Shown here one piece after another: positions 21,502 to 26,453 of a stretch of 64,000 bases of DNA. This DNA is from Sediminimonas sp. Its GTDB lineage: Bacteria; Pseudomonadota; Alphaproteobacteria; Rhodobacterales; Rhodobacteraceae. Numbering within the stretch: position 1 is the stretch's first letter; every line of letters begins with the position of its first letter. The DNA is taken from NCBI RefSeq assembly GCF_024637375.1, contig NZ_JAGXFK010000088.1, positions 39,353 to 103,352 on the forward strand, written 5' to 3'. The translations under genes were made by a program, and so were the position numbers. The notes beneath the pieces were generated by a model. It made no database searches, was not told the DNA's origin, and saw nothing but the letters and a program-made list of their open reading frames with translations.

Positions 21502-21532
21502 TGTGATCACAGCCTTCAAGCGTGTGATCACA
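21502..21532. promoter_or_regulatory. Paired TGTGATCACA operators upstream of sucC
   Basis: Perfect 10 bp palindromes TGTGATCACA at 21502-21511 and 21523-21532, with centres 21 bp apart (two helical turns). The same pair with the same spacing stands upstream of sdhC. The arrangement fits cooperative binding of two dimers, for example of a GntR-family regulator such as AkgR, which is reported to control TCA genes in Rhodobacter. The regulator identity is an inference. Confidence 0.7.
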
Positions 21533-21646
21533 TGATCCCCGGATGTGGCGTCTTGTCGCGCCGTTTGCCGGGCCTGCGCGGTTTCGCGAATCGTAACAGC
21601 GACAATCACTTGCCATTGTGCGCCCGGCATTGTCGCCGCGCGATCG

Positions 21647-21676
21647 AAAAAGGGCGCCCGTGGCGGGGCGCCCTTT
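21647..21676 (-). terminator. Rho-independent terminator after mdh
   Basis: Perfect stem AAAGGGCGCCC / GGGCGCCCTTT (21649-21659 and 21666-21676) with a 6-base loop. In the mdh direction it ends in five T residues (21651 to 21647). It lies 29 bp after the mdh stop and separates mdh from the sucC transcript. Confidence 0.85.
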
Positions 21677-21704
21677 GCCGAGGTCGTGGCCGTTCGCGCC
21701 CGGC

Positions 21705-22667
21705 TCAGGCCAGTGCGGGGTCGATTTCCTTGCAGGCGGCGACCAGCCCTTTGACCGCGTCGACCGACTTGTCGAACATGGCCTGTTCGTCCTTGGTCAT
21801 CTGGATTTCCACGATACGCTCGATCCCGCCGGCACCGATGACCGACGGAACGCCGACATAGAACCCGTCGAGTCCGAACGCGCCATCGACATGGGCCGCG
21901 CAGGGCAGGACGCGCTTCTGGTCCTTCAGATAGGCTTCGGCCATTTCGATGGCCGACGTGGCGGGCGCGTAGAAGGCCGAGCCGGTCTTGAGCAGGCCCA
22001 CGATTTCGGCGCCGCCGTCGCGGGTGCGTTGCACGATCGCGTCGAGCTTGTCCTGCGTCGTCCAGCCCATTTTCACCAGGTCGGGCAGGGGAATGCCGGC
22101 CACGGTCGAATAGCGCACCAGCGGCACCATGGTGTCGCCGTGCCCGCCCAGAACGAAGGCGCTGACGTCCTTCATCGAGACGTTGAATTCCAGGCTCAGG
22201 AAGTGGCGGAAACGCGCGCTGTCGAGAACACCGGCCATGCCGCAGACCTTTTCGCGGGGCAGGCCGCTGAATTCGCGCAGCGCCCAGACCATCGCGTCGA
22301 GCGGGTTGGTGATGCAGATGACGAAGGCGTCGGGCGCGTTCGCGGCGATGCCTTCGCCGACGGCCTTCATGACCTTGAGGTTGATGCCCAGCAGGTCATC
22401 GCGGCTCATCCCCGGCTTGCGGGGCACACCGGCGGTGACGATGCAGACATCGGCGCCGGCGATGTCGGCGTAGTCCTGCGTGCCCTTGAGCGCCGCGTCG
22501 AACCCGGCCGAGGGGCCGGATTCGGCGATGTCGAGCGCCTTGCCCTCGGGTGTTCCCTCGGCGATATCGAAAAGGACGACATCGCCGAGTTCCTTCATGG
22601 CTGCGAGATGGGCAAGGGTGCCCCCGATCTGTCCTGCGCCGATCAGCGCGATCCTGGGTCTGGCCAT
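21705..22667 (-). CDS. mdh: Malate dehydrogenase
   Basis: A 320-residue NAD-dependent enzyme of the LDH-like MDH type. NAD-binding GAGQIGG lies at the N-terminus, catalytic [14 protein letters not shown] near residue 155 and the active histidine in GGHGDTMVP near 176. It oxidises malate to oxaloacetate. It has its own terminator and is upstream of sucC in the same direction, a usual order in alphaproteobacteria. Confidence 0.97.
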
Positions 22668-22821
22668 TGGAGTATCTCCGGTCGGTTGAATTTGGCCGCA
22701 GGGGTAGTCTGTTCCGCCCGCCCGCGCAAGGGTGCTGCGCCGCGGCGCAAATGGCAGGCCCCTGTGCGGAGCGTGCGATTTGCGCTAAGGCGGGGGTCGG
22801 ACAGGACTCTTCAGGAACCCG

Positions 22822-23577
22822 ATGTTGCAGCCGGATATCGCATTTTTCGCCGTCGCGGCGCCGGCCGTGGTGTTCGCGGGCGTATCGAAAGGCGGTTTCG
22901 GGTCGGGGGCGGCCTTTGCCGCGGCGTCGATTCTCGCGCTCGTGGTGCCACCGGGGCAGGCGCTGGGGGTGATGTTGCCATTGCTGATGCTTATCGATCT
23001 GGCGACCTTGCGCCCGTACTGGCGACGGTGGAGCTGGCCCGACGCGCGGTTGCTGATCCTCGGCGCGCTGCCGGGCGTGATACTGGGGGCGGCGCTTTAC
23101 CGGGTGGCGAACGACGATCTGCTTCGGCTGTTGATCGGGGCGATCTCGATCGGGTTCGTGGCCTGGCAACTGGCGCGCCGCGGGGGCTGGCGCGTTGCGC
23201 GAACGCGGCCGATACCTGCGTGGGGCGGGGCACTGGCGGGCGCTGTCGCGGGGTTCACCAGTTTCGTCAGTCACGCCGGCGGGCCGCCCGCGGCGGTCTG
23301 GCTGCTGTCACGCGGGCTGGACAAGACGCGGTTCCAGGCGACCACCGTGATCGTTTTCTGGGCCGTCAACATCATGAAATTCGTGCCCTACGCGTTCCTG
23401 GGGATATTCACCTGGCGCAGCCTCGCGGTTGACCTGGTGTTGGCGCCTTTCGCGCTTCTGGGCGCGTGGCTTGGGGTTCTGGCGCACCGGCGCGTGCCGG
23501 AATCGGTATTTTTCACCATCACATATGTTTTGCTGTTGCTGACCGGGGCCAAGCTGATCGTTGACGCGCTGACGTGA
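22822..23577 (+). CDS. TSUP (TauE/SafE) family permease
   Basis: 251 residues with about seven membrane helices. The repeated TSUP motif is seen as SKGGFGSGAAF near residue 22 and FTSFVSHAGGPPAAVWLL near 145. These permeases move organosulfur or small organic anions. It is divergent from mdh (154 bp between) and 167 bp before the malyl-CoA gene. The substrate is unknown; a C4 or acyl-related anion would fit the neighbours but nothing in the sequence proves it. Confidence 0.88.
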   Translation: MLQPDIAFFAVAAPAVVFAGVSKGGFGSGAAFAAASILALVVPPGQALGVMLPLLMLIDLATLRPYWRRWSWPDARLLILGALPGVILGAALYRVANDDLLRLLIGAISIGFVAWQLARRGGWRVARTRPIPAWGGALAGAVAGFTSFVSHAGGPPAAVWLLSRGLDKTRFQATTVIVFWAVNIMKFVPYAFLGIFTWRSLAVDLVLAPFALLGAWLGVLAHRRVPESVFFTITYVLLLLTGAKLIVDALT

Positions 23578-25175: not shown

Positions 25176-25180
25176 GGGCG

Positions 25181-25384
25181 ATGAAACTCTACCGCTTTTT
25201 GAGTGCCGACGACACGTCCGCGTTTTGCCACAAGGTGACCGAGGCGCTGAACCAGGGCTGGGAGCTCTACGGCAGTCCGACCTACGCTTATGATGGCACC
25301 AATGGCGTGATGCGCTGCGGTCAGGCGGTAACGAAAGATGCCGAGGGCGCCTATACCCCCGACCTGAAACTCGGAGACCAGTAA
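25181..25384 (+). CDS. DUF1737 protein
   Basis: 67 residues, MKLYRFLSADDTSAFCHKVT..., ending GQAVTKDAEGAYTPDLKLGD. This is the DUF1737 family of small cytosolic proteins of unknown function. I chose the ATG at 25181 because homologues begin MKLYR; an ATG at 25172 overlapping the NnrU stop would add three residues. The next gene starts 2 bases after the stop. Confidence 0.85.
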   Translation: MKLYRFLSADDTSAFCHKVTEALNQGWELYGSPTYAYDGTNGVMRCGQAVTKDAEGAYTPDLKLGDQ

Positions 25385-25386
25385 CC

Positions 25387-26418
25387 ATGGCCAAGACGAA
25401 CGCCGGCCGCTTTTTCGAAGACTACCGGTTGGGTGAGGTCATCCGCCATGCCGTGCCGCGGACCGTGGGCAGCGGTGAGCGGGCGCTCTATCACGCGCTC
25501 TACCCCGCGCGGCATGCGCTTCATTCATCGGACACGTTCGCCCGCGCCTGTGGTCTGCCGGCAAGCCCGCTGGACGATCTGGCGGCGTTCCATGTCGTGT
25601 TCGGCAAGACGGTGCCCGACATCTCGCTCAACGCCGTCGCCAACCTGGGCTATGCCGAGGGCCGCTGGCTGCGCCCGGTATGGCCGGGCGATACGCTCAG
25701 GGCCGAATCAGAGGTGATCGGGCTCAAGCAGAACTCGAACGGCAAGTCCGGCGTGGTCTGGGTGCGCACGCGCGGCTTCAACCAGCACGGCGAGGGGGTG
25801 CTGAGCTATGTCAGGTGGGTGATGGTGCGCAAGCGCGACCCCGAGGCCCCGGCCCCCGAGGCGAACGTGCCGGAACTCAAGCCCGCGCTCGCCGCTGCCG
25901 ATCTTGACGTGCCTGAGGGGCTGGATTTCTCGGGCTATGATTTCGACCTTGCCGGCGAGCCGCACCGCGCGTCCGACTACAGGGTCGGCGAGCAGATCGA
26001 CCATGTCGATGGTGTCACCGTCGAGCAGGCCGAGCACATGATCGCCACGCGCCTTTGGCAGAACACCGCCAAGGTACATTTCGACGCCACCTTCCGCCCC
26101 GACGGGCAGCGCCTGATTTACGGCGGGCATGTGATCTCGATGGCGCGCGCGCTGTCCTTCAACGGGCTGGCCAACGCGCAGATGATCGTGGGGCTCAACG
26201 GCGGGGCGCATGCCAACCCGTGTTTCGCAGGCCAGACGATAAAGGCGTGGTCCGAGGTGCTCGACATTGCCGACACCGCCGCCCCGAACGTTGCGGCGAT
26301 GCGGTTGCGGCTGGTCGCGACCTCGGGCGGTGCCCCGTTCCGACTCAGGGACGATGACGGCAAGTACCTGCCCGAGGTTCTGCTTGATCTCGATTACTGG
26401 GCGCTGGTGCCATGCTGA
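25387..26418 (+). CDS. mch: Mesaconyl-CoA hydratase (beta-methylmalyl-CoA dehydratase)
   Basis: A 343-residue double hot-dog MaoC-type hydratase beginning MAKTNAGRFFEDYRLGEVIR. FFEDY, SGERALYHALYPARHALHSS and the second half RLIYGGHVISMARALSFNG are characteristic of the alphaproteobacterial Mch. It interconverts mesaconyl-C1-CoA and beta-methylmalyl-CoA in the ethylmalonyl-CoA pathway. It is in line with mcl2 upstream and sdhC downstream, the same order as in Rhodobacter sphaeroides. GGAG lies 9 bases before the ATG. Confidence 0.92.
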   Translation: MAKTNAGRFFEDYRLGEVIRHAVPRTVGSGERALYHALYPARHALHSSDTFARACGLPASPLDDLAAFHVVFGKTVPDISLNAVANLGYAEGRWLRPVWPGDTLRAESEVIGLKQNSNGKSGVVWVRTRGFNQHGEGVLSYVRWVMVRKRDPEAPAPEANVPELKPALAAADLDVPEGLDFSGYDFDLAGEPHRASDYRVGEQIDHVDGVTVEQAEHMIATRLWQNTAKVHFDATFRPDGQRLIYGGHVISMARALSFNGLANAQMIVGLNGGAHANPCFAGQTIKAWSEVLDIADTAAPNVAAMRLRLVATSGGAPFRLRDDDGKYLPEVLLDLDYWALVPC

Positions 26419-26422
26419 GGTT

Positions 26423-26453
26423 TGTGATCACGTCGCGGCCGCAAGTGATCACA
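26423..26453. promoter_or_regulatory. Paired TGTGATCACA-type operators upstream of sdhC
   Basis: TGTGATCACG at 26423-26432 and AGTGATCACA at 26444-26453; centres are 21 bp apart, identical to the sucC pair. The whole block is itself symmetric, TTTGTGATCAC...GTGATCACAAA. It lies 141-171 bp before the sdhC start, directly after the mch stop. Confidence 0.7.

Follow-up and report, generated by a model that had tools for sequence, protein, structure and literature searches.

The system closest to the one treated here is the AkgR regulon of Rhodobacter sphaeroides, in which AkgR is said to be the protein RSP_0981 and reportedly (Imam et al. 2015, mBio) activates genes of the tricarboxylic acid (TCA) cycle directly. 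The subject here is a stretch of 64,000 nucleotides from Sediminimonas sp. (family Rhodobacteraceae; contig NZ_JAGXFK010000088.1, positions 39,353 to 103,352; hereafter the window), in which two pairs of short palindromes with the consensus TGTGATCACA stand upstream of sucC, the first gene of a suc-odh cluster, and of sdhC. According to excerpts of PMC4344238, the targets predicted for the GntR-type regulator RSP_0981 in R. sphaeroides are sucCD, the 2-oxoglutarate dehydrogenase genes and sdh; excerpts of PMC6365646 call AkgR a transcriptional activator, place GTGATCAC among its binding sites and give the same motif for a GntR protein only 32% identical to AkgR. A second regulator, the LacI-type CceR (RSP_1663), was predicted for mdh and sdh in the same species with the motif GTT N6-8 AAC (excerpts of PMC4344238), and GlcR is described as a GntR/FCD repressor (excerpts of PMC11323563).

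The arrangement in Sediminimonas resembles the AkgR regulon, as excerpted, in its core GTGATCAC, its sucCD, 2-oxoglutarate dehydrogenase and sdh targets and its co-occurring GntR regulator, whereas obligate pairs spaced 20 or 21 bp, A/T tracts arranged as a ladder and the lone site at the start of the regulator's own gene distinguish it from the regulon as given in those excerpts. It shares with CceR a predicted place at sdh and differs from it in the motif. The likeness to Class I activation by CRP lies in sites upstream of the minus-35 element, in distances that may shift by whole turns and in a proposed model involving the C-terminal domain of the RNA polymerase alpha subunit; unlike at CRP promoters, the protein family and site are different, and there are two copies at 20- or 21-bp spacing, with A/T tracts occupying the interval to the promoter. 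We consider it likely that the pairs are tandem operators of an AkgR-type GntR/FCD regulator, predicted from sequence to activate suc-odh and sdh together from one face of the DNA. The rigid geometry was not found in the literature consulted on the motif or on AkgR, where the titles point to no other paper on such a pair, although Imam et al. 2015 (mBio) may describe the pair; the excerpts of PMC11323563, PMC7471390, PMC4419725 and PMC5507952 do not mention it.

Paired putative operators before sucC and sdhC

All four sites that a preliminary description of the window had reported are present, and both pairs are spaced by 21 bp (Table 1). That description called the pairs identical, which holds for the two exact sucC copies, whereas neither sdhC copy (TGTGATCACG and AGTGATCACA) matches the consensus fully and the two are not the same; it gave the start-codon distances correctly, at about 107-137 bp for sucC and 141-171 bp for sdhC. 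The core GTGATCAC is present in 4/4 copies, the half-sites abut or overlap within TGTGATCACA, and the distal sdhC operator begins 4 bases past the stop of the preceding MaoC-type hydratase gene. At no more than one mismatch the window contains 6 sites against 1.22 expected, a number reached in 0/100 shuffles, and two such sites within 60 bp were seen in 0/300 Markov simulations of the window. The sdhC coding frame contains another 9/10 copy, AGTGATCACA again, at 26782-26791, which recurs in two loci of the same genus, L072 (2389) and L116 (10189), and is probably driven by codons.

The preliminary description had named both a GntR-type and a LacI-type regulator, and it is the former that fits, the predicted CceR motif GTT N6-8 AAC being absent from both upstream regions (21396-21700 and 26380-26593). 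A CRP-type site, which has six bases between TGTGA and TCACA, was rejected as well: the half-sites here are not six bases apart, and the spacing is wrong.

Conservation was followed in the best 80 of 150 loci found by SdhC, nearly all labelled Rhodobacteraceae, Rhodobacterales or genera of that group, which with the window give 81 loci and 80 distinct sdhC upstream regions; the highest SdhC identity among these 80 was that of Sediminimonas qiaohouensis (95%, residues 1-117). Since the loci were fetched for SdhC, this sample is rich in sucC and sdhC promoters. The reading in the preliminary description depended on the pair being conserved before sucC and sdhC in relatives and on its not recurring at random at the same spacing, and both points were borne out: a pair (at most one mismatch per site, 20-21 bp apart) precedes sdhC in 76 of the 80 distinct upstream regions and sucC in 44/44 distinct upstream regions within the fetched stretches, as against 0/69 for the MaoC-type hydratase gene before sdhC and 0/64 for mdh. 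Over the relatives' loci as a whole (1,377,582 bases, 307 sites at no more than one mismatch), sites less than 63 bp apart are spaced by 21 bp (102 pairs) or 20 bp (17 pairs) only. The four sdhC upstream regions without such a pair (L085, L108, L110, L119) have one or two sites, otherwise spaced, and the base profile shows operators that are nearly fully conserved between flanks that are little conserved.

A third site lies 63-197 bp before the sdhC pair in 15/76 upstream regions, and is present with 11 of the 14 20-bp pairs versus 4 of the 62 21-bp pairs. Before the 20-bp pairs it stands 63-114 bp away (L073, L078, L081, L083, L084, L089, L091, L095, L101, L104, L148). This third site may serve a loop or be a lineage trait, for which shared ancestry may be an explanation.

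The pair layout is common to most genera sampled in the family. In 106 of 120 family genomes (one per genus, the window's own included) there are two GTGATCAC cores separated by 0-30 bases, and a hand count of the 75 pairs in the matches listed gives 64 at 21 bp, 4 at 20 bp and 7 at other spacings. Once duplicates were taken out by hand, the 48 pair loci from whole-genome scans came to 45 distinct places, of which 24 are before sucC, 15 before sdhC and one more (L067) before sucC by context; the other five (L016, L045, L047, L048, L069) are elsewhere, four of them with a spacing other than 20-21 bp. Across the class, the 20/21-bp pair was present in 2/142 genomes, both from the window's family, and in 0/140 from other families, while a looser pair pattern was met in one genome of another family (G021, at L016), where neither sucC nor sdhC was found. 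Exact sites number 3 to 8 per genome in six genomes. Extra single sites have differing contexts, many of them inside open reading frames (ORFs), and the ORF lists, the only material consulted for this, revealed no shared further target in 13 stretches around such sites (15 with others). In L243, one site stands about 130 bp before an ORF that by eye resembles nuoG.

A candidate GntR/FCD regulator and the single site at its gene

A search of the window's genome, which is 88% complete, returned seven FCD-domain genes. One of these, on another contig (C78, 1624-2268), encodes a protein with GntR and FCD domains, and an exact site begins 19 bases ahead of the predicted start of this gene. Among the remaining six, five show no site at up to one mismatch within the stretch fetched, and the sixth (C74) has a 9/10 copy roughly 1.2 kb upstream. 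The closest solved structure by sequence is E. coli McbR (PDB 4p9f, E 4.4e-21), likewise of the GntR plus FCD type and the nearest solved relative. We know of no role of McbR in TCA control. The helix-turn-helix segment is nearly unchanged in 16 orthologs of the C78 regulator. The FCD metal positions of this protein (L004, 1520-2167), N136, H140, H183 and D205, are invariant in the 16 orthologs; the usual FCD metal set being Asp or Asn plus three His, its last His would here be Asp (D205).

The presence of the regulator follows that of the pair. Close orthologs were defined by E <=1e-50, within a gap in the listed scores between 2.6e-56 and 3.4e-47. Such an ortholog is found in 103 of the 106 genomes that have the pair and in 1 of the 14 that do not, kinship being ignored in these counts. 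The genome with an ortholog and no core pair (G054) has a degraded sucC pair, with one mismatch per copy and the 21-bp spacing retained, and at sdhC a single site with two mismatches. Both the pair and the close ortholog are missing from 13/120 genomes; in regulator-less genomes a site at up to two mismatches was seen in 0/12 sdhC upstream regions read, and 10/12 sucC upstream regions were likewise without one. Single sites at the usual sucC position occur without a close ortholog in L201 (G123; -116, one mismatch) and L206 (G031; -139, two mismatches), and are perhaps remnants of a lost regulon, or chance. The likely regulator is an AkgR-type GntR/FCD protein, and its identity with RSP_0981 is putative. 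That one regulator ties sucCD/odh to sdh, as the preliminary description had proposed, agrees with the conservation, the gene content, the co-occurrence of the GntR/FCD ortholog and the excerpts of PMC4344238 and PMC6365646.

At the regulator's own gene (akgR) the site is single. Of 41 ortholog loci, 38 have a site, at no more than one mismatch, close to the akgR start (30/30 best-scoring loci and 8/11 from named-locus genomes; L166 and L258 are the same akgR gene), whereas none was found within 250 bases of the start in 11 paralog loci. The layout is TTGACN-N11-site in 31/38, with a gap of 12 or 13 in 5 and no TTGAC in 2, and the next ATG or GTG follows 7-9 bases past the site in 25/38. In this layout the site covers the predicted minus-10 element and the start codon falls close to the expected first transcribed base; the simple reading would be a leaderless message under autorepression. 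The three orthologs without the site, L262 (Gemmobacter), L263 (a Rhodobacter metagenome-assembled genome) and L265 (Cypionkella), suggest that autoregulation may be lost in a branch nearer Rhodobacter. In two loci of the same genus, L034 and L255, a second but imperfect TGATCA follows the akgR site at 21 bp, across the start codon, and may be a chance product of Met-Leu-Ile codons.

Promoter geometry and a proposed mechanism

The sucC promoter elements in Table 1 are predictions, picked by eye with the register taken from the family alignment profile; an automatic sigma-70 scan with self-made matrices did not place this promoter. At sdhC, the motif GTGAC, taken as the minus-35 element, follows the proximal site at 56-59 nucleotides (nt) in 66/73 sequences and at 68-69 nt in 5/73, the outliers being L072 of the window's genus (45 nt) and L123 (40 or 50 nt); in 12 further sdhC sequences it is found at 57-58 nt in nine and at 69 nt in one, and is absent from two. 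At sucC, conserved T columns resembling a minus-35 element lie 46-47 nt past the site, about one turn closer than at sdhC, and TATA occurs at 70-71 nt in 13/44 sequences and not in the other 31. A comparison of the minus-10 elements yields a smaller difference, so that the one-turn step between sucC and sdhC is tentative.

Between pair and promoter, peaks of A/T content recur at steps of about 10 bp, phased with the operators. For the 44 sucC sequences the period-10 power is 0.165, where 1000 circular shifts yield at most 0.051; for the 76 sdhC sequences it is 0.121, where they yield at most 0.036. The ladder is kept when the sequences are thinned to less than 55% identity (25 sucC, 45 sdhC), where 0/2000 shifts reach it, and is seen again in additional sets of 20 and 12 sequences, where 0/1000 shifts do so. 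As a control, consensus promoters elsewhere had no ladder, in a set of 8 sequences only. The single site at the regulator's gene, the A/T tracts and the whole-turn distances had all been missed in the preliminary description.

Table 1. Genes, operators and predicted promoter elements of the two target loci (window coordinates).
Feature	Coordinates	Strand	Remarks
lpd	10799-12187	-	NCBIfam
sucB	13662-15227	-	NCBIfam
sucA	15231-18200	-	NCBIfam
sucD	about 18756-19637	-	NCBIfam
sucC, succinyl-CoA synthetase beta	20202-21395	-	NCBIfam; first gene of suc-odh cluster
Predicted sucC promoter	21426-21454	-	minus-10-like CTATAT 21426-21431, minus-35-like TTATGT 21449-21454, 17-bp spacer
Pair-to-promoter stretch, sucC	21455-21501	-	A/T tracts every ~10 bp in family average, weaker here
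Operator proximal to sucC	21502-21511	-	TGTGATCACA, exact copy
Operator distal to sucC	21523-21532	-	TGTGATCACA, exact; 21 bp from proximal copy
Operator distal to sdhC	26423-26432	+	TGTGATCACG, 9/10 match
Operator proximal to sdhC	26444-26453	+	AGTGATCACA, 9/10 match; 21 bp from distal copy
Pair-to-minus-35 stretch, sdhC	26454-26510	+	A/T tracts every ~10 bp in family average
Predicted sdhC minus-35, GTGACA	26511-26516	+	57 nt past proximal operator
sdhC	26594-26977	+	NCBIfam; sdh set spans 26594-29969
sdhD	match about 27037-27330	+	NCBIfam
sdhA	27373-29178	+	NCBIfam
sdhB	match about 29265-29963	+	NCBIfam

From sucD to lpd (10799-19637) the genes lie on the minus strand like sucC, with intervening ORFs to which no names are given, and sucC-sucD-sucA-sucB-lpd would form one transcript. 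An ORF at 19655-20197, between sucC and sucD, has no NCBIfam match at 1e-10; it overlaps the ORF of sucD and is possibly spurious.

In the mechanism that we propose, one AkgR dimer would bind each palindrome, two dimers sitting side by side two helical turns apart, and the paired dimers would aid RNA polymerase in a class-I-like manner, most simply through alpha C-terminal domains docked in A/T-rich minor grooves. At akgR, one dimer would cover the predicted minus-10 element and so repress. Taken together, the A/T tracts, the mostly whole-turn shifts at sdhC and the single, overlapping akgR site suggest activation of suc and sdh from one face of the DNA and autorepression of akgR. The name and targets of the regulator suggest a TCA-cycle carboxylate such as 2-oxoglutarate as its effector.

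Competing explanations and the meaning of the architecture

Several observations weigh against paired activation by an AkgR-type protein. The counts over the 120 genomes ignore kinship, and three genomes have the pair and no close ortholog: G110 (77% complete), G033 (91%) and G128 (listed as 100%, in 320 contigs). The locus number RSP_0981 leads one to expect the regulator near sdh, and no GntR homolog was seen in the fetched stretch around sdhC in 80 named loci. The pair, about 57 nt before the sdhC minus-35 element, is far from the promoter for direct contact. L123 breaks the whole-turn rule, three further sdhC upstream regions have no GTGAC, and the whole-turn shifts rest on few independent events at promoters that are themselves predicted. 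Finally, mdh and hydratase upstream regions show no ladder under an automatic anchor, which loses the sucC ladder too, so that the A/T ladder is only partly controlled against other promoters.

It is conceivable that the pair is a repressor site, at which a GntR protein keeps suc and sdh shut off until it is freed by a substrate: several GntR/FCD proteins repress (GlcR, in excerpts of PMC11323563), and the single akgR site overlaps a predicted promoter. We regard this as unlikely, in that the pair lies upstream of the predicted minus-35 element (by about 57 nt at sdhC and about 46 nt at sucC) rather than over it, and AkgR is called an activator in the excerpts of PMC6365646. Less probable still is that another regulator recognising GTGATCAC, for instance a paralogous GntR/FCD protein, binds the pairs while the AkgR-type gene is a bystander. 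The GTGATCAC motif reported for the 32%-identical GntR protein (excerpts of PMC6365646) implies that the motif is shared in the wider family, and the three genomes with the pair and without a close ortholog would fit as well; nonetheless, 0/11 paralog loci have a site near the start, paralogs with 36-43% identity stay the best match in genomes that have no pair (e.g., G068, G115 and G123), and the ortholog keeps the single site at its own start in 38/41 loci. The two palindromes could also be taken for an RNA hairpin or terminator marking the 3' end of the gene that precedes them, given that both copies can pair with each other and that the sdhC pair in the window lies 4 bases past the preceding gene's stop. 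This we hold to be very improbable indeed: each copy is itself palindromic, the spacing is fixed at 20-21 bp, for which a hairpin has no need, akgR has a single copy, and L073, L081, L083 and L112 keep the sdhC pair with no hydratase gene found in the fetched stretch.

The paired-operator reading may extend to a fixed module across the family, in which two GntR dimers, an A/T ladder for alpha docking in steps of about 10 bp and a promoter would be combined in whole turns, with self-repression through one site over the promoter of an apparently leaderless message, so that the number and place of sites would set the regulatory sign. We put this forward tentatively, as somewhat short of an even chance; its modularity is based on the sucC pair, which is about one turn closer than the sdhC pair, and on some relatives with an sdhC pair displaced by one turn.

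The site is correct and strongly conserved, and its main point is already explained by the known regulon; new here are the likely regulator in the Sediminimonas genome, the family-wide geometry, the joint absence of operators and regulator, and the distinct akgR layout. A GntR regulon predicted in one model species thereby becomes a defined operator architecture in most sampled genera of a large family, and the regulator is pointed out in genomes where no specific name exists for it. The joint absence of regulator and operators from 13/120 genomes is a usable case of regulon loss, and the architecture offers sharp tests of the way in which a GntR protein of the FCD type may act as an activator.

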